From Pseudomonadota bacterium (GTDB lineage Bacteria; Chloroflexota; UBA5177; JAJPKF01), in assembly GCA_021323865.1 (NCBI GenBank), contig JAJPKF010000024.1, forward strand, positions 73,207 through 137,206: a stretch of DNA of 64,000 nt, in the 5' to 3' direction. How positions within the stretch are numbered: the stretch's first letter is position 1; each line of letters opens with the position of its first letter. A model generated the notes under the pieces. That model did no database searches and was not told the DNA's origin. It worked only from the letters and a program-made list of their open reading frames with translations. Shown in pieces: positions 3,378 through 59,358 of this stretch. Made by a program: the position numbers and the translations under genes.

Positions 3378-4355
3378 ATGAGGCACGTGACCGACCAAGA
3401 GCAGCTCCGCCGAGCGTTCGAGCACAAGACGGTGCTGATCACCGGGGCCTCTCGTGGCCTCGGCTTGTTGCTGGCCGGTGAAGTCGGCCGGCTGGGGGCA
3501 AACGTGGTAATCTGCGCCCGCCGTGGCGACGAGCTCCGGCGCGCCACCGAGTGGCTGCGAGGATTCGGCATCGAGGCACTGGCCCTGGAGTGCGACGTCT
3601 CGAGCCGCGACGCCGTGAACGACCTGGTTCAGCGCATTCGCGAGTCCCGTGGGGCGGTGGACGTGCTCTTCAACTGTGCCGGCATCATCCAGGTAGGCCC
3701 CGTCGAGTCCATGCGTCTGGAGGATTTCGAGACTGCGCTTGGGGTCATGTACTGGGGCACCGTCTACCCGACGCTGGCCATCCTTCCGGAGATGCTCTCG
3801 GCGAGACAGGGGACTATCGTCAACATCACCTCGATCGGTGGCAAGCTCAGCGTTCCTCACCTGCTGCCCTACAGCTCGGCAAAGGCCGCGGCGGTTGCCT
3901 TCTCAGAAGGATTGCGCGCCGAGGTGCGGGGCAAGAATGTGCAGGTGGTCACGGTGGTGCCGGGCCTCATGCGGACCGGCTCGCATCTGCAAGCGACCAT
4001 CAAGGGCGGCCGCGAGCCGGAGTACGCCTGGTTTTCTCTGGGCGCGACCTTCCCCTTCGTCTCCATGGATGCGGAGCGCGCCGCACGGCGCATCGTCGCC
4101 GCCGCCGCGCGGCAGGAGTCGGAGCTGATCCTGTCGCTGCCCGCGAATCTCGCCGCTCGCTTCCATGGCCTCTTCCCGGGCATCACTGCCAATCTGATGG
4201 CGCTCGCGGAACGATTCATCCTGCCCGCGTCCTCCAGCGATTCCCGCCCGGTCAAGGGCTGGGCGGTGCAGGCGCGTGCCGGATCCCGAGTGCTGGACGC
4301 CCTGACCGCCTTCGGACGCTCCGCTGCCCGACGGTTCAACCAAGTGAGCGACTGA
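3378..4355 (+). CDS. Short-chain dehydrogenase/reductase
   Basis: This is a classical-type SDR of about 325 residues. The cofactor motif is TGASRGLG near the N-terminus, then NCAG in the fourth strand and a catalytic YSSAK (YxxxK) about 165 residues in. The N-terminal Rossmann half is complete, and a ~90-residue C-terminal tail beyond the usual 250 residues may bind a membrane or a partner. I choose the ATG at 3378 because it follows GAAAGGCAG; a TTG at 3327 would add 17 residues of no SDR character. Substrate unknown. The codirectional neighbour is a GT-C-like protein. Confidence 0.88.
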   Translation: MRHVTDQEQLRRAFEHKTVLITGASRGLGLLLAGEVGRLGANVVICARRGDELRRATEWLRGFGIEALALECDVSSRDAVNDLVQRIRESRGAVDVLFNCAGIIQVGPVESMRLEDFETALGVMYWGTVYPTLAILPEMLSARQGTIVNITSIGGKLSVPHLLPYSSAKAAAVAFSEGLRAEVRGKNVQVVTVVPGLMRTGSHLQATIKGGREPEYAWFSLGATFPFVSMDAERAARRIVAAAARQESELILSLPANLAARFHGLFPGITANLMALAERFILPASSSDSRPVKGWAVQARAGSRVLDALTAFGRSAARRFNQVSD

Positions 4356-4551
4356 GAGCACGGCAGCCCGCGGGAGGGCAGCGGCCGAGCCGCGTACTAG
4401 ACCGTCCGGCAGCTCGGCTCTTTCACGGCAGCGAACCGCGTAAGCCAGCCACCGTTCATCGGGCACGCCGATTGCGTTGGACGCCGCTTGCGGTGGTCTG
4501 ATGCCCTGACGTGTGGGCGGGAGAAGAGCATGGACATCTCGCGGTTGAGTA

Positions 4552-6666
4552 TTGCCGGCGCTCTCTGAGCAGGAGCTGCTCTTCGGTCTGCTGGCCATCG
4601 CCGTCATTCTGTTCCTGGCCCGGGCGGGAGGAGAGCTGGCCCGACGGCTTCATCAGCCGGAGGTTCTCGGCGAGCTGTTCGCCGGCTTCGTCCTGGGGCC
4701 GTCGATCTTGGGCGCGGCGCTGCCCGGCGTGCGTGCCGCGCTGTTCCTCAAGCCGGGCGTGGGGGTTGCGCTGTCGGCGCTCTCATGGCTGGGCGCCATC
4801 ATGCTGCTGCTGGTCGCCGGTATGGAAGTCGACGTCGGACTGCTCCGGCGGCACATGCGGCCGGCGCTGCTGGTGGCCGGCGCCGTCACGTCCGCCTCGG
4901 TGGTGGCTGGCATCGCGTTCGCCGCCATCGCCCTCGGACGGACCGGCTCCACGGCCTTCTTCCTCGGAGTCATTCTGTCGGTCACGGCGGTCAGCGTTGC
5001 GGCCAAGATCCTGATCGAATGGGGATCGACGCGGCGGGACTTTGCGCAGATGATTCTCGCCGCCGGCATCACCACCGAAGTGGTGGTGTGGCTGCTGGTT
5101 TCGGTTGCCTCATCCGGTGGCGGAGCCATGGCGGCCACGGCCGTCGAGCGTGGCGCACTGGCCGCGGCCTTCTTTGCCTTCGTGCTGCTGGTCGGCCGTC
5201 GCTTCGTGTTCTGGAGCATGAGGCGCGTCGGCGACGTGACCAACGTGATCAACGGCCAGCTGAGCCTGGTGCTGGTCTTGATGCTGCTCGCGGCGGCTCT
5301 GACGCAGGAGCTTGGGCTCCATCCGCTTCTCGGCGCTTTCGTCCTCGGCGTTGTCCTCGGGCAAGCGCCCAGGACGAGCGAGCAGCTCCTGGCCAACGTG
5401 CAGTCGCTGGCCATCGGCCTCTTCGCGCCCATCTTCTTCGTTCTGGCGGGCATGCGGGTGGATATCCTCCAGCTCAAGACGGCGAGCGCGGTCCTCCTCA
5501 CGCTGTCACTGTTCCTGGTGGCGAGCGTGGTGAAGGTGGCCGTCGGCTTCGTCGGAGCGCGGGTGACCGGTCGTGGCACGGCCGAGGCGGCCCTGGTGGG
5601 TGTCGGACTCAACCTCAAGGGTGGCACCGACGTGGTGGTCGCCATTGTCGGCGTGACGCTCGGGCTCATCAGCGGGACGATCTACACCATGTACGCGGTG
5701 GTGGCGATCCTCACGGTGCTCGTCTCGCCCTCCATCATGTCGTGGCTGGAAGCCCGGGCGCCGGCGACCGAGCAGGAGCGGGAGCGACTGAAGGCCGAGG
5801 AAGAGGAGCGCCGAGCCTATACGAGGACGTTGGAGCGGGTGCTCCTGCCTGCTGCGCCCCAGCTCCAGTCCGAACTGGCGGGCAGCGTCGTGGAAGCGAT
5901 CGCTCGCTCCAAACACGAGAGATCGCAAACGTTCGACGTCACGCGGTTCGCCCTGGACGCCGGGAATGGGCACCATCCGCCCGAAGGGAAATCCGCAGAC
6001 CCCCTGGGTGAGGTCAGCCGGCTGCCGGAGGTGGAGGTGACGACCCAAAAGGCCTCCGGCAATGGAGGACCACTGGAGCAGATTTTGGATCAGCTGTCGG
6101 GCCATGATCTGCTGGCCATCGGAGCGCGCGGCTGCTCACGGCGCCGCCCGTCCTTGGGACGTCTGCAGGACGCGCTGATCCAGCGGGCAGAGTCGGACGT
6201 GCTGCTGGTGTCGTCCGACCGGGAGCGCTTGGAGTGCTCGGAGATCAACTGCATACTGGTGCCCCTCAACGGATTGGAATATTCCGCGGCGGCCGGCGAC
6301 ATCGCCGGTTCTCTGGCGCAGTCGTGTGAAGCGCGATTGGTGGCGCTGCATGTCGTGCAGAGCGGCGTGAGCGAGCTGTTCTGGCGCGAGCGAGACCGAC
6401 GTGATCTGCTGAACTGGGGCTCCAGCGTGGCCGAGGACCTGGCCTTCCGCGTGGGGCGGCTGGGCGTCCCAGTGGAGGAGCGGGTCGAGGTGGGCGACGA
6501 CGTGGCCGCGCGCATCGTGCAGGAGCTGGGCAGCGGCAGCTACGACCTGGTGGTGATGGGGGCCGTGCTGCGCGGGCAAACGGGGCCTGTGCACCTCGGA
6601 CAGGCCGTGCAGACCGTACTGCGGAAGAGCAGGGTCCCCGTGATCGTGCTGGTTTCCAGGGCGTAG
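4552..6666 (+). CDS. CPA2-type cation/proton antiporter with C-terminal Usp domain
   Basis: This 704-residue protein has a CPA2/KefB-like membrane domain in residues ~1-395 (about 12 helices, with motifs QPEVLGELFAGFVLGPS and NLKGGTDVVVAI). Two cytoplasmic segments follow, the second (residues ~560-704) a universal-stress-protein fold ending SGSYDLVVMGAVLRGQ and VPVIVLVSRA. It would exchange Na+ or K+ for protons, and the Usp part could gate it by nucleotide binding. A stop codon sits two codons upstream of the TTG at 4552, so this rare start, or an internal one, must be used. An ATG at 4530 opens a 12-codon frame ending just inside the gene, which could be a leader peptide or the sign of an upstream frameshift. 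Confidence 0.9.
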   Translation: MPALSEQELLFGLLAIAVILFLARAGGELARRLHQPEVLGELFAGFVLGPSILGAALPGVRAALFLKPGVGVALSALSWLGAIMLLLVAGMEVDVGLLRRHMRPALLVAGAVTSASVVAGIAFAAIALGRTGSTAFFLGVILSVTAVSVAAKILIEWGSTRRDFAQMILAAGITTEVVVWLLVSVASSGGGAMAATAVERGALAAAFFAFVLLVGRRFVFWSMRRVGDVTNVINGQLSLVLVLMLLAAALTQELGLHPLLGAFVLGVVLGQAPRTSEQLLANVQSLAIGLFAPIFFVLAGMRVDILQLKTASAVLLTLSLFLVASVVKVAVGFVGARVTGRGTAEAALVGVGLNLKGGTDVVVAIVGVTLGLISGTIYTMYAVVAILTVLVSPSIMSWLEARAPATEQERERLKAEEEERRAYTRTLERVLLPAAPQLQSELAGSVVEAIARSKHERSQTFDVTRFALDAGNGHHPPEGKSADPLGEVSRLPEVEVTTQKASGNGGPLEQILDQLSGHDLLAIGARGCSRRRPSLGRLQDALIQRAESDVLLVSSDRERLECSEINCILVPLNGLEYSAAAGDIAGSLAQSCEARLVALHVVQSGVSELFWRERDRRDLLNWGSSVAEDLAFRVGRLGVPVEERVEVGDDVAARIVQELGSGSYDLVVMGAVLRGQTGPVHLGQAVQTVLRKSRVPVIVLVSRA

Positions 6667-37613: not shown

Positions 37614-37689
37614 GGGCCCGTAGCTCAGCGGTCAGAGCAGGGGACTCATAATCCCTTGGTCGCTGGTTCGAATCCAGCCGGGCCTACCA
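37614..37689 (+). tRNA. tRNA with CAU anticodon (tRNA-Ile2-like), element insertion site
   Basis: This is a 76-base tRNA with encoded CCA. The acceptor stem GGGCCCG pairs with CGGGCCT, leaving a G1-U72 wobble; the D arm is GCTC/GAGC. The anticodon arm GGGGA/TCCCT has loop CTCATAA with anticodon CAT at 37647-37649, and the T arm is GCTGG-TTCGAAT-CCAGC. The body resembles E. coli tRNA-Ile2 (GACTCATAATC and TTGGTCGCTGGTTC) more than elongator Met, so lysidine modification to read AUA is likely. Its 3' half is duplicated at 59314, marking an integrated element. In the second copy the base matching position 72 is C, which would restore a normal G-C pair. Confidence 0.93.
37645..37689 (+). repeat. 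Left attachment repeat (attL) in tRNA 3' end
   Basis: It starts CTCATAATCCCTTGG and ends ACCA. It matches the right copy over 40 bases, then differs once (T37685 against C59354) and matches ACCA again. It includes anticodon, T arm and acceptor 3' strand, so integration leaves the tRNA whole. Confidence 0.92.
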
Positions 37690-39733: not shown

Positions 39734-40915
39734 TCAGTCCAATTCCCTGCCCATCTCACCGGCCTGAAATAGTGAGTCCAGCCGCCGCGCGGCGTCACGT
39801 TGGAGTTCAGGGGCCATGTGGCTGTAGGTGTTCGCGGTGAGGTTGTATGAACTGTGTCCGAGGATTTCCTGTACAACCTTCATTGGCACTTTCGCGAACA
39901 ACATCAAACTCGCGGCGGTATGGCGCAGCTCGTGTAAGCCGACCTGACGAATACCGAGCGCGGACAGCTCAGCCTTTAACTTGTGATGAACGTTGGTGGC
40001 GTCGAGCGGTGTCCCAAGATCTCCGCAGAAGATCAGGTGGTTGTCATGCCATTCCGCGCCAAGGAGACGACGCCGCTCGTCCTGCCGTGAATGATGATTC
40101 ATCAAGGCCTCGGTCGCGACCTCAGTGAGGTCAATCGTTCGCCGGCTCTTCTCCGTTTTGGTATCAACGAAGACAAGGCCTTTCCCCGGCTGGCGTTGGA
40201 CGGCCCGGCGAATGCGCAGCGTCTTCGTCGCGGCATCGAAATCGTCCCACGTCAGCCCGAGCGCCTCGCCGATACGAAGACCGGCTGTCCCGAGCACCAC
40301 CCACAACGCATGCAGTGGCGAGTCATGAGACCGTTCAAAGAAATCGCGAGCCTCTTCCGGTCGCAACCAGCTGTGGGCCTTGGCCTCGACACGCGGTGGT
40401 TTCGTCCAGTCGATCGGGTTTCGCGGGATGACCTCCCATCGCACGGCATCATTCAGGGCGATGTGCAGGACTCGTCGCGCGTGCCCAACGGTGGCCGGAG
40501 AGAGTCCGTCTTGGAGCATCCTTCCATACCACTGCTGGATGTCGGCAGGTTTTAGCGCTGCGAGCTGAAGGTGGCCGAGATGCTTGTTGATACGACGAAG
40601 GTTGAGGTCGTATGAGATCAGCGTTGATGGACGGATACTTTGCCGTACTGTCCCGATCCACTCACCGAGATATTCCGCAACGGTCTGATGTGTGATCTCT
40701 CCGATGCGTCCTTGCCGCTTGGCAACCTTCGCATCTTCAAGCGCCTGAATCGCCTCCGCTTGTGACTTGGCGTAGATCACCTTTCTCTTCGGCCCGTCGG
40801 GCGTATCGATGGTGATTTCCGCAACCCAGCGTTTCGGTTCGCGTGTGCCATCGGCGCGTAACCGCCCGGCGCGCTCAAAGACCGTGCCTTCGTTGTTGGC
40901 TCGTCGGCGCGGCAT
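39734..40915 (-). CDS. int: Tyrosine site-specific integrase
   Basis: This 393-residue phage-type integrase has an N-terminal arm-binding region (RRRANNEGTVFERAGR), a SAM-like core-binding domain (TVAEYLGEWIGTVRQSIRPS) and a catalytic domain. The catalytic set is intact: Arg in GLRIGEALGL, Lys in the beta-hairpin TKTEKSRR, HELRH, then GH in ILGHSS and the Tyr nucleophile in TANTYSHM. It would recombine the 40-bp tRNA core. I choose the ATG at 40915 because MPRRRANNEG is the family's usual beginning; an ATG at 41008 would overlap the zinc-ribbon gene. It follows ssb and the zinc-ribbon gene on the same strand. Confidence 0.94.
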   Translation of the reverse strand: MPRRRANNEGTVFERAGRLRADGTREPKRWVAEITIDTPDGPKRKVIYAKSQAEAIQALEDAKVAKRQGRIGEITHQTVAEYLGEWIGTVRQSIRPSTLISYDLNLRRINKHLGHLQLAALKPADIQQWYGRMLQDGLSPATVGHARRVLHIALNDAVRWEVIPRNPIDWTKPPRVEAKAHSWLRPEEARDFFERSHDSPLHALWVVLGTAGLRIGEALGLTWDDFDAATKTLRIRRAVQRQPGKGLVFVDTKTEKSRRTIDLTEVATEALMNHHSRQDERRRLLGAEWHDNHLIFCGDLGTPLDATNVHHKLKAELSALGIRQVGLHELRHTAASLMLFAKVPMKVVQEILGHSSYNLTANTYSHMAPELQRDAARRLDSLFQAGEMGRELD

Positions 40916-40964
40916 CAGTTCTGACCAACGGAAGCAAGGTGGGAATAGTCGGGACGCGTCGCTC

Positions 40965-41156
40965 TCATCGTCTGCATCGCCTGCATTCCGCCAGCTGCTC
41001 GACATCATCAGGTCCAGCGCCTTTCTTGCGTGAGCCGGAGTCGTTCCGACAATCCGCGCAGGTGCCGGAGAAATCAACCTCGGTCCACCAGCCACATTCG
41101 CGGCACCACCAATAAATGCGGAAGGGGTTGCCATCCCCGCTGGTCGCCTTCGTCAT
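40965..41156 (-). CDS. 63-residue zinc-ribbon protein
   Basis: This small protein has CRECGWW and CADCRND pairs plus a final CRRCRR, consistent with a zinc ribbon. Its ATG overlaps the TGA of the ssb gene by four bases (ATGA), which marks it as a real, translationally coupled gene. It ends 49 bases before the integrase start. Function unknown; a DNA-binding accessory of integration or replication would fit its neighbours. Confidence 0.75.
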   Translation of the reverse strand: MTKATSGDGNPFRIYWWCRECGWWTEVDFSGTCADCRNDSGSRKKGAGPDDVEQLAECRRCRR

Positions 41157-41542
41157 GACGACACCTCGTGCTCAGGCGCCTCGACAAAGGTGCCGATCGG
41201 TTCACTGTCGTGACTGGCGCTGTCGCCATGCGGCTCTCCCTTGACCGGTACGACGTGAGCGGCCACGAATCGAATGGAGCTGGCGCGCATGTGGTCGTTC
41301 CGTGAGGAAACGCCCGCCTCGATTCGCCCATCCACAAAGACCGGATCGCCGATTTTGAGCGACTCGGCCGCACGCTGTGCCGCAGCTGACCACAGGGTAA
41401 TGAAGTGGTAGTCGTTGCGACCGTCCCCGGAAGTTGACCGCCGCGTACTCATCCGCAAGAAACAGAAAGGCGTCCCTGATGCCGTTCGCAAGAACTCGGG
41501 TGAATGGCTGACGTGACCAAGCAGCTCAAACCGGTTGACCAT
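41153..41542 (-). CDS. ssb: Single-stranded DNA-binding protein
   Basis: This 129-residue OB-fold protein starts MVNRFELLGHV, a variant of the SSB N-terminus, with DYHFITLWSAAAQRAAESL and GDPVFVDGRIEAG as in the bacterial SSB core. The C-terminus (EHEVSS) lacks the usual acidic DDDIPF tail that recruits host repair proteins. The start follows AGGAGG by eight bases. It would cover single strands made while the element replicates or transfers. Confidence 0.88.
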   Translation of the reverse strand: MVNRFELLGHVSHSPEFLRTASGTPFCFLRMSTRRSTSGDGRNDYHFITLWSAAAQRAAESLKIGDPVFVDGRIEAGVSSRNDHMRASSIRFVAAHVVPVKGEPHGDSASHDSEPIGTFVEAPEHEVSS

Positions 41543-41598: not shown

Positions 41599-42231
41599 TT
41601 ACACGGGGACGTTGTTCGCGTCGTCGGTCTCGCTTTCAGTCAGCAGTGCTCGTGCGTGACGGCGAGCGCGCAGGGCGATTTGCCGGAGATTGTTCGCGCT
41701 CACGCCGAGGAAGCGAGCGAGCTGCTCTGGCTCGCCCCCAAGGAGATAGAGGTGCGTCACAACGCGCCGGTGGCGGTCACTTAAGCGGCGAAGGAGCGAC
41801 GCGACCGTCAACTGGTCGACCGTCAACTGTGCCGGGTCCTGAGCACCGTCGTCCGAGAAACGCTCGTCGTTCTCGTTGATGTAGTGACCGTCACCGACGT
41901 GCACATCGCTGGATCGATGCCGCTCCTCCCGCTGATGCCGGCGGTTAATGTCACTGCAAGCTCGCGATGCGGCCCGGATCAACCACGCCTCATTGGAGTG
42001 GATTCGTTCCCCGGATCGTCGAAGAAATCGGAGGAAGGTGTCTTGTACCGCGTCCTCGGCATCTGCTTCTGAACGCATGCGGCTTCGGCAGAACCGCTTG
42101 ACCGCCGGTTCATAGCGCCGCACGATTGCCGCGTCGGATTCAGAGACTGGCTCAACACGAAGTTCCATTGTTGGGCAGTCGTTCGGCTCCGCGAAATCAT
42201 TACAGGGGTCGTCGTGGGGCATGACCGGCAC
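41599..42231 (-). CDS. Sigma-70 family RNA polymerase sigma factor
   Basis: This ~210-residue ECF-like sigma factor has region 2 in ERY-like residues through DAEDAVQDTFLRFL (the conserved core-binding block) and region 4 in LLRRLSDRHRRVVTHLYLLGGEPEQLARFLGVSANNLRQIALRARRH, a helix-turn-helix. The start may be the GTG at 42231 or the ATG at 42222. No anti-sigma factor is adjacent. It probably directs transcription of element genes. Its upstream DNA is the structured non-coding region. Confidence 0.85.
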   Translation of the reverse strand: MPVMPHDDPCNDFAEPNDCPTMELRVEPVSESDAAIVRRYEPAVKRFCRSRMRSEADAEDAVQDTFLRFLRRSGERIHSNEAWLIRAASRACSDINRRHQREERHRSSDVHVGDGHYINENDERFSDDGAQDPAQLTVDQLTVASLLRRLSDRHRRVVTHLYLLGGEPEQLARFLGVSANNLRQIALRARRHARALLTESETDDANNVPV

Positions 42232-42317
42232 GGTATCGAACGGATGTTCGGTCGGTCAATGCCGTGTCCGCAGACACACAGATGAGAGCGCGCGACGCGA
42301 CGCGAACCGGTCAAAAC

Positions 42318-42375
42318 CCTTGGCGCGGCCGTCCGCAAAGTCACCGAGCCCCCCAATCCCTTCACCGCGCCAAGG
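42318..42375. other. Inverted repeat 1 (11-bp stem)
   Basis: CCTTGGCGCGG at 42318-42328 is the exact reverse complement of CCGCGCCAAGG at 42365-42375. The loop is 36 bases. It abuts the next structure with one base between. Confidence 0.75.
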
Positions 42376-42376
42376 T

Positions 42377-42469
42377 CCAACCCTCGCGCCGGCGGAATAA
42401 CAATTTTGGCGATATGGGAGCCGGCTTCCGGCTGCCATGTCGCTCCGCTGTGCCGGCGCGAGGGATTGG
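42377..42469. other. Inverted repeat 2 (16-bp stem with bulge and inner hairpin)
   Basis: CCAACCCTCGCGCCGG at 42377-42392 pairs with CCGGCGCGAGGG (42453-42464) and TTGG (42466-42469), leaving a single bulged A at 42465. Inside is a second hairpin, AGCCGG-CTT-CCGGCT, at 42419-42433. Confidence 0.75.
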
Positions 42470-42563
42470 CAAAGCCAGGAGAGTCAGTGACCGGGGCATG
42501 AACCCATTGGGGACGGGTCGGGCGGGAATATCGAGCCAAGCGGGCGAGGTCAGCGCGCCCTGA

Positions 42564-42649
42564 AGCAGTCGCTGAGCGAAGGGGAGACGGTGCGGCGCGA
42601 CCAGCGGCGACGAAGTGAACACGGTCTCCCCGAGAGCGATATGACTGCT
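42564..42649. other. Inverted repeat 3 (nested stems)
   Basis: AGCAGTC (42564-42570) pairs with GACTGCT (42643-42649). Within it GGGGAGACGGTG (42581-42592) pairs with CACGGTCTCCCC (42620-42631) with one mismatch. TCGCT/AGCGA pairing between the two stems is also possible. Confidence 0.65.
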
Positions 42650-42923
42650 CAGGATCGAGCACGCGGACTTCGCACGCGACACTCCTTTTCTGGAAACCGC
42701 TGCTCATCGACTCGCTCGCCATCCGATCACCACGATCGCCCCCTTCTTCGTCAATGCCCGCGTCCTTGTTCGTCACTCTGCTGCCGCGCGTGATTGCTCC
42801 TTCCGCTTGCCCCTCCCCTTTGTTCTCCTCGCGTGCTTTGCTCCTATTCATGCCCTGGTCACTGACTCTCCTGCTGTCAATCCGATTTGTTTGTACCGAT
42901 ACGTTCTTGTTCTTTTTCTGCTT

Positions 42924-43104
42924 GCTTGGCCCACCCACTTACCGATCACCGCACCCCGCCTCTTGCCCCGCCCGGTACGACACCCCATCCGCAAAACATC
43001 ATCAAGATGTGTGGGTGGGGTGTCGGGCAAATGACTGTTCATTTGAGGGCGGGGCAATGTGGCGCCATAAGGGTAATTTCTCTGCCTTAATGGGTGGGCC
43101 GAGC
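42924..43104 (+). ncRNA. Nested multi-branch structure, candidate structured RNA or origin
   Basis: An outer 14-bp stem pairs 42924-42937 with 43091-43104. A second 11-bp perfect stem (TTGCCCCGCCC) pairs 42963-42973 with 43047-43057. It encloses a 16-bp hairpin (42978-42993 with 43010-43025) and a 6-bp hairpin AAATGA-CTGT-TCATTT (43029-43044), giving a three-way junction. The three imperfect pairs in these stems (42927/43101, 42988/43015, 42991/43012) are all G-U if the + strand is transcribed and would be A-C on the other strand. That favours a + strand RNA or single-stranded DNA fold. No T-run terminator follows and no promoter is certain. Confidence 0.55.
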
Positions 43105-43131
43105 GAGCAGGAACGTCGACATGGCGCGTGT

Positions 43132-44949
43132 TCATTTCCGGTGAATACCTGAGTGACCACGCATCCACCACCACCGCAGCCGGTCAAGAGTGGATGGTTC
43201 GGGGCCATGAGTCGCTCCGACGGGTTCGACCTGAACAATGGCAGGACGCGAGCGGAAGACGGATCGGACAGCGACATACCCGGTCCGGAGCTCGCGCAGC
43301 TCGTTGGGATTGACGTGATAACTGTTCTGCTCGCGCGCGCTCGCCATCCCGGTCGGCCCCATGCTCTGCTCGATTTGGATCGACGCTTCCCAGCGCATCC
43401 GAGTACCGAACTGCGCGGCGATCACCTCGGCGTCGGCGGCTTCAATCCGGTGGGCGACGATCAGGCCGGCTTGGAGGACGGCCTGACGGATGTTCGTCGT
43501 CTCGGGGATGTACTGAGTCGAGACCAGCGTCGGCAGCAGGCCTTCACGTGCCTGCAGGAGCAGGTCGACGATCTGGTCCGCTTCCGGCAGCGCCGCGAAC
43601 TCATCGAAGACAACGAGCGTCGGAGTGAGCTGCTGTCCAGATCGGATGGCGCCGATACGACGGGCGCATTCCTGCTTCAGATCTTGGGCGACGACTCTGC
43701 CGAGTAGCTCGACGTCTTCGCTCGCGGCCGTGGCCGGCAGATTGACGTACACGACGGACGGTGACGTAAGGACCCGCGGCCAACTCAGGACTTCGCGGGC
43801 AGTATCGGGGGCGAGGAGCAGGTCACGAAACTTACCGTTGAGGAGCGCCATTAACCGAACACGGAGTCCTGCAATCCCGTCGCCGACAGCGCCGCGCTCT
43901 TCAGCCAACACCGTGAGCTCGCGGTGATAGGGCTCGCCGGCACGTTGACCGATTTGCCGCATGCGGCCGGGGATCAACCCTTCGGTCAGTGTTGCCAGAG
44001 TGATTGGCCCGTCGCCGGCTTGTTCCATCGCACGGACTACGGTGGGGATGACCATCATGGCGACGTGCTTGTAAAACTCGCCGCCTGACGTGCCGTAGTT
44101 GAAGATGCCGGTCAGCTTATTGGTGATGTCTGCGGCACTGCCTGTGCACACGTCGTAACCGATGGAGCCGGGATCGTTGGCATCGACGACATGGAGCGAG
44201 AGATCGTGGACGGCTGCGAGCGACTCGGCGATGTGTTTGAGACCGCCACCGCCCTTACAGTCGACGATCACGACGCCGAAGCGCGCCGCACAAACGCCAT
44301 CGGCAATGCGCGCGATGGTCGTGGTCTTGCCGCTTCCGCTCGCGCCCGGAAGAAAGATGTGATGCATAAGCTCATGCCTTTCGAAAGAGAAGATTTCTCG
44401 TGTTTCTCGGTCGATCCCGAGCGCGATCCGTGGCGTCGAATCGCTGTCAGTTTCTGAAGCGGTCGTTCGCGCAGTCGTTCGCAAGCCCGTCGTTGCAAGC
44501 ATGCGCAGCTCTGTTCTCCGTTGTTCAGCGCGCAACGCCGGCATGACTCCGACTCGTAACGCCGACGCCGCCGCTGCGCAAGCCAGCACCAAAACAGGAC
44601 CAAGGAGCGTCTCGATGGTTATGCCGAGTAGCAGATGAAGCGACGGGTAAACGGGGCCGATGCCGATGTAATGAAGGACGTTCTCGGTGTTGGGCCATGA
44701 GCGCCATAACCAGCCGGGCTCGACCACGACATGCGCGGCAAGGAAGAGGACAGCACACCCTGCACCGACGGCCCACCGAATAACTCGGGCCGGTCGAAGC
44801 GCCTGCGTGAACCACCAGAAGCATCCCGCCCCGATGAGTGAACCGGGATCGCTGACCGCGATGATGGTGCAGGCGACCATGCCAAAGACGCCGAGGTCAT
44901 GGATCACACGCTGGGCGTCGCGGTTGTACGCGAGACCGCCGGCCTTCAC
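43132..44949 (-). CDS. TraD/VirD4/FtsK-like DNA-translocating ATPase
   Basis: This 605-residue protein has an N-terminal membrane region of about four helices (residues ~10-135) and a cytoplasmic motor. Walker A is GASGSGKTTTIARIA, Walker B is PTLVVFDEFAALPEA, and VSTQYIPETTNIRQAVLQ resembles the TraG/VirD4 motif III region. It would couple the relaxed DNA strand to a transfer channel or pump double-stranded DNA. The GTG at 44949 overlaps the upstream TGA (GTGA), so the two genes are coupled; a longer frame to 45042 is only overlap. No secretion-channel genes are present. Confidence 0.88.
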   Translation of the reverse strand: MKAGGLAYNRDAQRVIHDLGVFGMVACTIIAVSDPGSLIGAGCFWWFTQALRPARVIRWAVGAGCAVLFLAAHVVVEPGWLWRSWPNTENVLHYIGIGPVYPSLHLLLGITIETLLGPVLVLACAAAASALRVGVMPALRAEQRRTELRMLATTGLRTTARTTASETDSDSTPRIALGIDRETREIFSFERHELMHHIFLPGASGSGKTTTIARIADGVCAARFGVVIVDCKGGGGLKHIAESLAAVHDLSLHVVDANDPGSIGYDVCTGSAADITNKLTGIFNYGTSGGEFYKHVAMMVIPTVVRAMEQAGDGPITLATLTEGLIPGRMRQIGQRAGEPYHRELTVLAEERGAVGDGIAGLRVRLMALLNGKFRDLLLAPDTAREVLSWPRVLTSPSVVYVNLPATAASEDVELLGRVVAQDLKQECARRIGAIRSGQQLTPTLVVFDEFAALPEADQIVDLLLQAREGLLPTLVSTQYIPETTNIRQAVLQAGLIVAHRIEAADAEVIAAQFGTRMRWEASIQIEQSMGPTGMASAREQNSYHVNPNELRELRTGYVAVRSVFRSRPAIVQVEPVGATHGPEPSTLDRLRWWWMRGHSGIHRK

Positions 44950-45629
44950 GGCCAGACCTTCACAGTAATCAGGTGGTCGGCGTACTCGCGAGCGACTAGC
45001 GTGCGCAGCCGTTCGGCGATCTTTGCGGTGGGGACAAACCACCAGACGTGGTCGTATGCCTCCGCGGTGTACGCGCGAATGATTGTTCCATAGTCCCGGG
45101 GGGCCTTCTTTACGAGATCAAGTTCAAGGGCGATCCGCTTGCCGTCGGGAAACGAGAGCAGACCGTCCGGGATGCGTCCGCGCCCGATGTCACGTTCGCC
45201 TGCTCGACGTGCGCGATGCAGCTCGCCACGGATCTCTCGCTCTGTCGTGACCGTTGCTGCTGGATGCTCTGCTTCCAGCTCGCCGAGCAGGTCCACAAGT
45301 TTCAGACTGTGGTTGACCTGTGACGGAACGATTCGAGCGGGCGATATTCCCAGCGCGACCAGACTCGCCCCGCGGCTCGTGACGCGGAGAAGCCGAGGCT
45401 CGTTGAAGAGCCATGGATCACTCTGCATCAGACGCAGGTCGATCAGCTTGGTGACACGGCGGTAGGCGGCACGTTTACCGTGAAAGAACTCGCGCTGGAT
45501 CTGGTCGATGGTCATGATCCCGTGCCGACACGTGCGGGTGAGTAACTCGAAGTCGCGCTCGGTTAACTGCCAGGGAGCGCGGCGCCGATACGTGTGAAGC
45601 TCGGCTGTGGATGATGGTCGGGTAGACAT
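44946..45629 (-). CDS. Replication-relaxation family protein
   Basis: This 227-residue protein begins with a winged-helix region (LTERDFELLTRTCRHGIMTIDQIQREFF, then RRVTKLIDLRLM), which is the hallmark of the Replic_Relax family found in actinobacterial integrative elements and plasmids. The second half (RIPDGLLSFPDGKRIALELDL) has the D...ExE-like pattern of PD-(D/E)XK nucleases, so DNA cutting is possible. It is coupled to the ATPase gene and sits where a relaxase would. Confidence 0.78.
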   Translation of the reverse strand: MSTRPSSTAELHTYRRRAPWQLTERDFELLTRTCRHGIMTIDQIQREFFHGKRAAYRRVTKLIDLRLMQSDPWLFNEPRLLRVTSRGASLVALGISPARIVPSQVNHSLKLVDLLGELEAEHPAATVTTEREIRGELHRARRAGERDIGRGRIPDGLLSFPDGKRIALELDLVKKAPRDYGTIIRAYTAEAYDHVWWFVPTAKIAERLRTLVAREYADHLITVKVWP

Positions 45630-45647: not shown

Positions 45648-45914
45648 TTAGGCGGCGTCGTTACGAGGTGAGACGTCACCGCCATTCGCGTTCTTTGCCG
45701 ATAAGGACTCAACGTACGCCTCGAGAGACGCTCTTCGGATGCGGGTCAGCCGCCCGATGTGCACGAAGTCGATCACATGCTGCTTGTTCGCCATGACGTA
45801 GAGCTGGGCACGCGATACCTGCAATAGCGCACACGCCTGGGAGACCGTGAGTAGCAGCGATTTCTCCGACGTCTTCTCGTCGATGGCCTCGCCGTCGGCA
45901 ACTAGAGGCGCCAT
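45648..45914 (-). CDS. Excisionase-like helix-turn-helix protein
   Basis: This 88-residue protein has a MerR/Xis-type helix-turn-helix: LLLTVSQACALLQVSRAQLY then FVHIGRLTRIRRASLEAYVE, the pattern of excisionase-family domains. I choose the ATG at 45914, which overlaps the end of the small membrane gene by 13 bases; the longer frame upstream has no family character. It probably directs the integrase toward excision and may bind the GTACAGT repeats near each end. Confidence 0.8.
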   Translation of the reverse strand: MAPLVADGEAIDEKTSEKSLLLTVSQACALLQVSRAQLYVMANKQHVIDFVHIGRLTRIRRASLEAYVESLSAKNANGGDVSPRNDAA

Positions 45915-46039
45915 CGGATGAATGCCAAGACGAGCTGTACGGCGAGTCGGAAAACGGTGAAGGCGATTTGGATCACCGGCCAGGGTCCAAGGAACCAGGC
46001 GACGGCGATCACGAAGAGGATGATCAAGGTAGTGGTCAT
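45902..46039 (-). CDS. 45-residue single-pass membrane protein
   Basis: This frame starts MTTTLIILFVIAVAWFLGPW and ends FIRWRL, with one or two hydrophobic helices and a basic tail. It lies in the minus-strand run between the 99-residue membrane protein and the excisionase gene and overlaps the latter by 13 bases. Function unknown; the position suggests a transfer or exclusion accessory. Confidence 0.55.
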   Translation of the reverse strand: MTTTLIILFVIAVAWFLGPWPVIQIAFTVFRLAVQLVLAFIRWRL

Positions 46040-46121
46040 GACTTTCCGTCTCTGTCTGTGTCTTCGTGGATGAGCGGGAGCGTGAGCGCGTGGTCGCACT
46101 CACGCTCCCCGTCAGGCTGTT

Positions 46122-50441: not shown

Positions 50442-51857
50442 TTAGGCTCGCCAGACCACGTTGACCCGGCCTGGTTCTCTGTACCGGCCTTTTCCAACGC
50501 GCCGAATCTCGATGTGATCGATAACCGTGCTGATAATCGAACGCTGCTGGTCGACTATCAGCGAAGGCCAAACGTGACGAGGCTGTTCTTCACCGGCGAG
50601 AGCGTGAAGTCGCTGTATCTCTGCATCAGTCTGAAGTTCAGACAACGCGGCTTGAATCCTCGCTTCTACCGGCTCGCGAGCCGCGAGCCATTCCGGCAAT
50701 GTGATCGCTCTATGAGCGTAAGCCGCAGCAATCTCTTCTAACTGTTGGCGATCGCTCTCTAGTTCTTGCAGACGCTCATGCCGGCCACGGAGTGCGTCTG
50801 CGTCTAATCCTCCAACCCGAAGATTTCCGAGGGCAGCAAGCACCGCCTCGCTCATGAGTGACTCTACGAATGCGGCGTTGATACTCACGCGTCCGCACCC
50901 TCGATTCGGGTAGGGATAACACCAATAGATCCTCCCGCGGTTGTGTCTCGGCGTCCCGGCGACTAATGGGGCGCCACACTCACCGCATCTGAGTAGGCCG
51001 CTCAGCAGGTATTTCCGCTTCCAGTGCTTGCCGGTCTTTCGCCTCTGAAAGAACGAAACAACCTCGTCGTACTCCGCCTGCGTGAAGATGGCTGGCCAGG
51101 CCGCGGCCGTCCGGCCACCCGTCGACAGCATGACCAAGCCCGCCACTCTTGGGTTGGTGAGGGCGCGTGTGAGTGACTTGCCGCACCATCCCTTGCCCGC
51201 AGTGGTGAGCTCGCCACTCCGGTTCAGAGAAAAGCAGATCGACCGGAGCGACTCGCCACTTAGTAGCCGCGATCGTGCTTCTCGAAGAACCGCAGCTTCA
51301 TGTGACACCACAGTTAGACCATCCCGCTCGTAGCCATAGGCTCGGCAACCGCCGCCCAGCGGTAGTCCCTGCTTGCGCCGCTCTTCCTTCTGTCGTCGAA
51401 TCCGCCGCGACTTGTGCTCGCTCTCCATGCGAGCGACTGCTCCGAGAATGCGCGCGTGGAGTCTGCCCTCTGGAGTGGAGAGATCGTGGTCCCCCGACAC
51501 CGACGCCAACTGCACGCCCTGTCGCTCCACAAGATCGATGAACGATTCGAGCTCCCGGGGCTGACGGTGCAGACGGTCCAGGTGCCAGACGACAACCGCC
51601 CGAATGAGACCGGCCTCGATGTCCTCACACAGGCGCTTGTACTGAGGACGCGGTTTGCCGCTGTAGGCGCTGATGTCGTTGTCGGTGTACACGTCAAACA
51701 GCTTCCAGCCCTGGCGTCCGACGATGGCTAGACAATCTTGCCGCTGGCGCTCTACCCCGAGGCCAGCGCCTTCTCGGTCTTCTGAGATGCGGCAATAGAT
51801 GCCAGCGGAAGGGGGCATGTGCGGAAGTCGCTGGAGAAAGGCCGGTTGTGACTCCAT
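50442..51857 (-). CDS. Large serine recombinase
   Basis: This 471-residue protein has an N-terminal resolvase domain (GIYCRISEDREGAGLG, Ser nucleophile in RIS; WHLDRLHRQPRELESF), a 'recombinase' domain (GKSLTRALTNPRVAGLV), a zinc ribbon (CGECGAPL ... CYPYPNRGCG) and a coiled-coil (HERLQELESDRQQLEEIAAA). It is a complete phiC31/TP901-type integrase. Its 5' end lies 130 bases from the stop of the isomerase gene. With a tyrosine integrase already present for the whole element, this one may have brought in the fluorinase cargo as a nested element. Confidence 0.93.
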   Translation of the reverse strand: MESQPAFLQRLPHMPPSAGIYCRISEDREGAGLGVERQRQDCLAIVGRQGWKLFDVYTDNDISAYSGKPRPQYKRLCEDIEAGLIRAVVVWHLDRLHRQPRELESFIDLVERQGVQLASVSGDHDLSTPEGRLHARILGAVARMESEHKSRRIRRQKEERRKQGLPLGGGCRAYGYERDGLTVVSHEAAVLREARSRLLSGESLRSICFSLNRSGELTTAGKGWCGKSLTRALTNPRVAGLVMLSTGGRTAAAWPAIFTQAEYDEVVSFFQRRKTGKHWKRKYLLSGLLRCGECGAPLVAGTPRHNRGRIYWCYPYPNRGCGRVSINAAFVESLMSEAVLAALGNLRVGGLDADALRGRHERLQELESDRQQLEEIAAAYAHRAITLPEWLAAREPVEARIQAALSELQTDAEIQRLHALAGEEQPRHVWPSLIVDQQRSIISTVIDHIEIRRVGKGRYREPGRVNVVWRA

Positions 51858-59313: not shown

Positions 59314-59358
59314 CTCATAATCCCTTGGTCGCTGGTTCGAATCCAGCCGGGCCCACCA
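59314..59358 (+). repeat. Right attachment repeat (attR), displaced tRNA 3' end
   Basis: This copy matches the tRNA 3' half from the anticodon loop to the end of the acceptor strand (40 identical bases, one change, then ACCA). It lacks the 5' half and so cannot make a tRNA. Its C59354, where the left copy has T, would pair with G1 and probably preserves the original chromosomal end. Confidence 0.92.

Follow-up and report, generated by a model that had tools for sequence, protein, structure and literature searches.

A 64,000-nucleotide stretch of DNA (hereafter the window) carries, at positions 42924-43104, a nested and branched fold that is a real, evolutionarily maintained structure. It is preserved by compensatory changes across nine elements and accompanies genes for a relaxase and a coupling protein. 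Situated on a mobile element next to MobC-like relaxase and coupling genes, this non-coding, conserved and covarying fold is most simply read as an origin of transfer (oriT). Judged from its sequence and surroundings, it is probably the oriT, unusually elaborate and covarying, of a MOBC-type integrative mobilizable element. The component parts are of known kinds; of a relaxase-linked covarying fold of such complexity we found no example in Rfam or in the literature searched, most subscription papers lying outside the latter.

The fold and its host element

The window contains a tRNA-Met gene (37614-37689) with a 40-bp repeat that is copied exactly at 59314-59353, from which we deduced an element of ~21.7 kb (37645-59353). 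Integrase and tRNA attachment repeats, which together characterize integrative mobilizable elements, are both present. The main features are as follows:

37645-37684, + strand: attachment repeat, copy 1; 40 bp, in the 3′ part of the tRNA-Met gene
59314-59353, + strand: attachment repeat, copy 2; exact 40-bp copy, presumed far end of the element
39734-41134, - strand: tyrosine integrase gene
41153-41542, - strand: SSB gene
41599-42231, - strand: sigma-70-family factor gene, on the opposite side of the fold from the coupling gene
43132-45042, - strand: VirD4/TraD-like coupling ATPase gene; start codon uncertain, the ORF overlaps the relaxase
44946-45629, - strand: Replic_Relax (PF13814), MobC-like relaxase gene; MarR-like winged helix and PD-(D/E)XK-like domain as modelled
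45648-46103, - strand: ORF with HTH_17 domain, putatively excisionase-like

The fold occupies the gap between the coupling ATPase and sigma-factor genes. Among the window ORFs that were scanned, none was recognisable as a mating-pore gene, and transfer would accordingly depend on a helper not seen here. The cargo bounded by the tRNA-Met repeats comprises SHMT/aldolase, IF-2B-like, tRNA-editing and SAM hydroxide adenosyltransferase genes. A serine recombinase gene (50442-51857) inside the same boundaries possibly marks a second, nested or fused element. The sigma-70-family gene (41599-42231), lying between fold and SSB gene on a mobile element, might activate transfer genes.

The deep nesting of stems within 181 bases that a preliminary description had reported was recovered as given at 42924-43104, together with a 7-bp hairpin (P2):

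42915-42937, - strand: outermost stem, arm 1; 14-bp core at 42924-42937, pairs with 43091-43113 (87% complementary)
43091-43113, - strand: outermost stem, partner arm; 14-bp core at 43091-43104, 23 bp when extended outward
42963-42973, - strand: stem P1, arm 1; 11 bp with 43047-43057, matches the outer stem of the relatives
43047-43057, - strand: stem P1, partner arm; 11 bp
43028-43045, - strand: hairpin P2; 7 bp (43028-43034/43039-43045), precedes P3 on the - strand, as in the relatives
42978-43025, - strand: core hairpin P3; 16 bp (42978-42993/43010-43025), with invariant ACCCCA/TGGGGT and a loop conserved in part
42947-43075, - strand: segment recognised by covariance model R2 (trained on the eight relatives, window excluded); 73.4 bits, E 9e-20

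An additional 6-bp hairpin is located closer to the 3′ side of the window fold. On the + strand, the 181 bases reach a minimum free energy of -104.5 kcal/mol (z -8.74), a stability attained by none of 200 dinucleotide shuffles; the - strand reaches -98.7 (z -7.17 against shuffles), and DNA energy parameters applied to 42910-43118 gave z -8.82. The comparison with shuffled sequence that had been suggested at the outset was thus borne out, as it was against native sequence: when 2128 windows of 181 nt each were taken at a step of 60 from both strands across the 64 kb, none (0/2128) was as stable as the + fold, and four outside the region equalled the - fold. Adjusted for GC content, the fold retained z-values of -6.1 (+) and -5.3 (-), with the next-best native window at -3.1.

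Rfam 15 yielded no match at gathering score in the fold region, which agrees with the earlier remark that no described RNA family fits, and a permissive search of the same release returned merely miRNA and snoRNA models far under their gathering scores. A single large ncRNA over 42360-43120 (z -12.2, 20 shuffles) was set aside because it had no Rfam match and the model of the relatives matched merely the part around 42947-43075. Two more inverted repeats were seen in the vicinity: one of 27 bp (42476-42502/42847-42873; 96% complementary, 344 nt between the arms), which adjoins the purine-rich side of the fold, and a perfect 13-bp repeat at 42381-42393/42452-42464.

Relaxases matching PF13814 are classed as MobC in the part of the source that was available (PMC5357655). 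In our scan of eight proteins, this profile scored above its cut-off in five (window, L040, L041, L042 and L044, the L-numbers denoting related loci) and below it in L067, and was absent in L034 and L035. Identity between the window relaxase and four relatives within its own group is 41-46%; the window protein scored 31.6 bits with the NCBIfam model MobC_subf (cut-off 200), and the L040 relaxase had no NCBIfam match. Alignment of five relaxase sequences revealed invariant P-D and E-L-D, with no invariant lysine after the E-L-D.

In structure models, the N-terminus of the relaxase is MarR-like, and the fold search with the whole model mostly showed this part, Foldseek returning no match at E <= 0.001. 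For the C-terminal part (AlphaFold2, pLDDT 88), the nearest solved structures were rich in restriction endonucleases (LlaBIII, BstEII, BsaWI, PaqCI, the nickase N.BspD6I, EcoO109I and FokI, with EndoMS listed too; Z 6.7-8.2), non-nuclease folds such as RNA polymerase subunits (Z up to 8.6) ranking equally with them. The restriction endonucleases in this list are PD-(D/E)XK enzymes. The C-terminus is accordingly modelled as a probable restriction-endonuclease-like, PD-(D/E)XK fold, in a tie with other folds. A relaxase profile searched against the sequences of solved structures gave just two weak matches (E 0.08-0.09). In the coupling protein, TrwB_AAD_bind scored marginally above its cut-off and NCBIfam TraD below.

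Related elements and covariation

Relatives were traced through the coupling ATPase. This protein matched in 22 of 400 genomes of the phylum at E <= 0.001, the window's own genome counted, and in seven besides its own at E < 1e-50. A scan of genome contigs with a three-sequence alignment led to five loci (L040-L044) in Dormiibacterota and Acidimicrobiaceae MAGs; the contigs of L041 and L042 were already among stretches retrieved earlier, and their genomes share the phylum of the window genome. All five loci possess the nested fold: the outer stem spans ~16-21 bp, the core hairpin contains ACCCCA/TGGGGT, and a small hairpin is present as well, though weak in L040. In total, outer stem P1, hairpin P2 and core hairpin P3 with this invariant element are common to eight related folds.

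Covariance model R1, built from L040-L044 and the window, was run over the 400 phylum genomes and recovered the three genomes of training copies as well as G062 (67 bits), G370 (64 bits) and, marginally, G195 (27.6 bits, partial, E 0.0099). G062 and G370 both belong to the five non-training genomes with a close ATPase (E<1e-50; hypergeometric 1.3e-4), so that, counting the marginal G195, two of the three new phylum matches fall in such genomes; in both, the fold lies on a contig other than that of the ATPase. Across 395 genomes from the class of the L040 MAG, R1 matched only G400 (training, two copies) and G684 (52 bits), in which the relaxase ORF starts 139 nt past the fold and is followed by the ATPase. 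An ATPase profile run over 296 genomes of this class likewise retrieved only G400 (two loci) and G684, and fold and ATPase therefore co-occur both ways in this class. The three new copies above 50 bits all come from genomes carrying the coupling gene. In the phylum, the fold was detected in four of the seven close-ATPase genomes other than the window's own; G335, G160 and G144 have a close ATPase and gave no fold copy in the R1 search of the 400 genomes.

R2 added no genome to the four already known among 110 genomes from the class of G353. Single-protein scans of genome and viral contigs were unproductive, as was an alignment scan of the viral contigs, in which a pattern scan had 0 matches. 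By tblastn, the L040 relaxase found no match in plasmids and phages, and the coupling ATPase hit 11 plasmid records, every one at <26% identity.

In six of the eight relatives (L040-L044 and L067), the fold shares the strand of the relaxase ORF and precedes it by 139-437 nt. The window fold lies on the relaxase strand as well, yet beyond the coupling gene rather than before the relaxase. For L056 and L057, the loci that hold the folds of G062 and G370, the contig ends 68 and 424 nt past the fold, with no relaxase match before the end; on the other side of the fold, both have a co-oriented integrase with a tRNA gene beside it (called by Pfam in L056; in L057 an ORF with tyrosine-recombinase motifs judged by eye). 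An M48 peptidase gene follows the coupling gene in L042, L044 and L067. On the 3′ side of the fold, purines make up 67-79% of the next 150 nt of the relaxase strand in eight of the nine elements (L067, at 55%, is the exception, and L056 was counted from 68 nt only), compared with 38-53% on the 5′ side. L067 additionally carries, at 3940-5348, an 8xMP gene and two TIR (Thoeris ThsB-like) genes as cargo, a possible defence module.

The preliminary description had named covariation in homologues as one of its checks, and covariation is present. In alignment A6 (nine sequences, fitted to R2, which favours the structure), 89.3% of cells pair, and at 16 of the 28 pairs both sides have changed with pairing kept. 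A6 contains 40 double-changed cells; its shuffled versions gave 14.1 +/- 2.9 (0/500), and slid controls had 2-9. A4, a MAFFT alignment of the eight sequences without the window, contained 34 such cells versus 12.2 +/- 2.7 (0/500) and 1-7 in slid controls. Since L043/L044 and L056/L057 are close pairs, the independent covariation events are fewer than these counts. Seven pairs, including ACCCCA/TGGGGT, never vary and are thus uninformative for covariation.

Strand of the conserved structure

Three imperfect pairs that are all G-U on the + strand had been taken to indicate selection on a + strand molecule, either RNA or single-stranded DNA. The pairs are as described inside 42924-43104, and selection on the structure is upheld by covariation; specificity for the + strand is not, as R2 favours the - strand. 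When the outer stem was extended to 25 bp, the imperfect pairs of the window became five G-T and one A-C, a weak bias (one-sided p 0.11). R2, to which the window did not contribute, scored 73.4 bits on the window's - strand and 22 bits, for a partial match, on the + strand. At the core hairpin, compared with six relatives (L056 and L057 left out), 20-23 of 29 positions match when the window is read on the - strand and 15-19 of 29 on the +. The - reading also gives the helix order P2 before P3 and the strand of the relaxase gene, as in the relatives. We had considered + as the conserved strand when R1 returned 70.2 bits for + and 48.7 for -, a preference that was circular, as the window had been aligned in + orientation within R1's own training row, and that R2 reversed. 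Given the preference of R2, the G-U argument points to the complement of the conserved strand.

To tally imperfect pairs in all nine folds, we used a helix finder that has no preference for either strand. With the window read on +, the 365 helix positions comprised 338 Watson-Crick pairs, 9 G-T, 10 A-C and 8 others. With all nine read on the relaxase strand there were 5 G-T and 14 A-C (two-sided p 0.064), and for the eight relatives alone 4 and 9 (p 0.27). As the relatives are not independent, we treat this bias as a hint only; the weak excess of G-T would favour the complement of the relaxase strand, in the window the + strand. Which strand folds more stably varies between relatives.

A candidate transfer origin and competing explanations

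If the fold is an oriT, the element would excise at its tRNA-Met attachment sites; the relaxase would then bind the fold, either extruded as a cruciform or in strands that have melted apart, and nick in or near the conserved P3 hairpin, and the coupling protein would deliver the strand to a helper element's mating pore. The role of P1 and P2 would be to position and expose P3, and the strands might separate in the purine-rich stretch on the 3′ side of the fold. According to the portions of two papers that were available, oriTs often adjoin relaxosome genes and carry inverted repeats (PMC5587640, PMC6414798). The fold lies in cis, near the relaxosome genes of a mobile element, and its inverted repeats hold a conserved core sequence. 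Counting against an oriT are the position of the window fold beyond the coupling gene and the failure to detect the fold in G335, G160 and G144. The same holds for the lack of a consistent direct-repeat pattern like that described for TraX, for the RepA_C gene beside the fold in L040 and L067, which would also suit a replication role, for the dependence on a helper, for the NCBIfam scores of relaxase and coupling protein below cut-off, and for the equal ranking of non-nuclease folds in the structure search.

Several other functions were weighed. The fold could act as single-stranded DNA after transfer or in rolling-circle replication, either as an sso for second-strand synthesis or as an Frpo/ssi-like promoter that activates, e.g., SSB in the recipient. 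Indeed, SSB and sigma-factor genes adjoin the window fold, ArdC and SSB genes lie downstream in L044, and the complement of the relaxase strand, which is the template strand for the SSB, sigma-factor and ArdC genes, has 14 G-T versus 5 A-C pairs (two-sided p 0.064); moreover, three stem-loops are predicted for sso1 of ICEBs1, which is active in one orientation only, going by the available part of that study (PMC4595007). We nonetheless consider this function unlikely: the pair bias is non-significant and counts related sequences, the more stable strand differs among relatives, the window region (42200-43250) contains no sigma-70 consensus promoter, and the consistent neighbour is the relaxase rather than SSB, the window SSB gene having a counterpart only in L044 among L040-L044 and L067. 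A structured RNA, whether a leader of the relaxase operon or a trans-acting mobilisation sRNA, would account for stability and covariation equally well, and in six relatives the fold is upstream of the relaxase gene on the same strand. RNA is expected to tolerate G-U much better than A-C, but wobble pairs are few here and do not outnumber A-C (9 G-T against 10 A-C over 365 positions, window read on +). Together with the lack of an Rfam match and of a sigma-70 consensus site in 42200-43250, this makes an RNA improbable, even if sgm-sRNA of SGI1 shows that a mobilisation sRNA can exist, as stated in the accessible part of its description (PMC9299015). For the window, a 5′ leader of the relaxase mRNA was rejected from the gene arrangement, the fold being downstream of the coupling gene.

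In L040 and L067 the fold comes after RepA_C and ParA-like genes and sits between the RepA_C gene and the relaxase (in L067 with HTH_17 around the fold); in L041 it comes after a ParA-like gene. Such neighbours would suit a replication origin, or else a site at which the excised element is partitioned or resolved, with RepA, a Par protein or a recombinase as the binding protein. However, the window ORFs scanned included no recognisable RepA gene, L057 has the fold yet no ORF >209 aa between its integrase ORF and the fold, and regular iterons were not seen, so that we regard a role of this kind as very improbable. The window region is GC-rich and contains four inverted-repeat pairs within 1 kb, as might be found in a chance cluster of palindromes or a transcription terminator. 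This last explanation is contradicted by the shuffled and native nulls, by covariation and by recovery of the fold in other genomes, the sole terminator-like site (43114-43126) being weak and outside the fold; we give it almost no credence.

For the preferred reading as an oriT, the closest comparison is with MOBC systems, for which, as for the other systems below, we drew on portions of the cited papers. TraX of pAD1 is the experimentally studied prototype of MOBC relaxases (PMC12857230). Like TraX and MobC of CloDF13, the present relaxase would pair a restriction-endonuclease-related domain with an N-terminal winged helix (PMC12857230), and inverted repeats are reported for the pAD1 oriT, too (PMC5587640). 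Unlike the elements studied here, which show no consistent pattern of short direct repeats, pAD1 offers TraX five direct repeats ~70-120 bp from nic as a binding site (PMC12857230), and the passages available on the pAD1 and CloDF13 oriTs make no mention of a covarying three-way fold. Mobilizable elements that pair their own VirD4 protein with a MobC relaxase are known (PMC5704250, PMC12479173). Among them, the Streptococcus IMEs share the set of integrase, PF13814/MobC relaxase and VirD4-like coupling protein (PMC5357655, PMC12479173, PMC5704250), but belong to other phyla, with no comparable fold in the portions of these reports available.

Likened by description only, the oriT of SGI1 is 125 bp long, GC-rich and near mobilisation genes, with several important inverted repeats, but works with the tyrosine-recombinase-like MpsA and MpsB instead of a MOBC relaxase (PMC6414798). 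ICEBs1 sso1 (PMC4595007) and the Frpo/ssi single-strand promoters (PMC11541004) resemble the fold, again by description, as multi-stem ssDNA structures in transferred elements; in contrast to them, the present fold accompanies a relaxase and not leading-region genes.

How MOBC relaxases retain DNA is left open in the part of the TraX literature at hand, no covalent DNA intermediate having been found (PMC12857230). We tentatively predict, as a possibility that we hold to be less than even, that the transfer origin is recognised through its shape once folded: the MOBC nuclease-type relaxase would use a three-way DNA junction to choose and hold the transferred strand. Compensatory changes would then keep the junction while most of the P1/P2 sequence changes, and the weak G-T excess would mark the strand complementary to the relaxase gene as the folding, transferred strand. 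A covarying, portable fold in poorly known phyla provides a defined substrate for testing DNA retention by MOBC relaxases, and its covariance model offers a way to flag candidate transfer origins that plain sequence similarity does not reveal. Upstream of the more distant relaxases, a different hairpin-rich non-coding stretch, shared as judged by eye, was observed in L035 (7960-8330) and L037 (3740-4120) and is perhaps another type of transfer origin.
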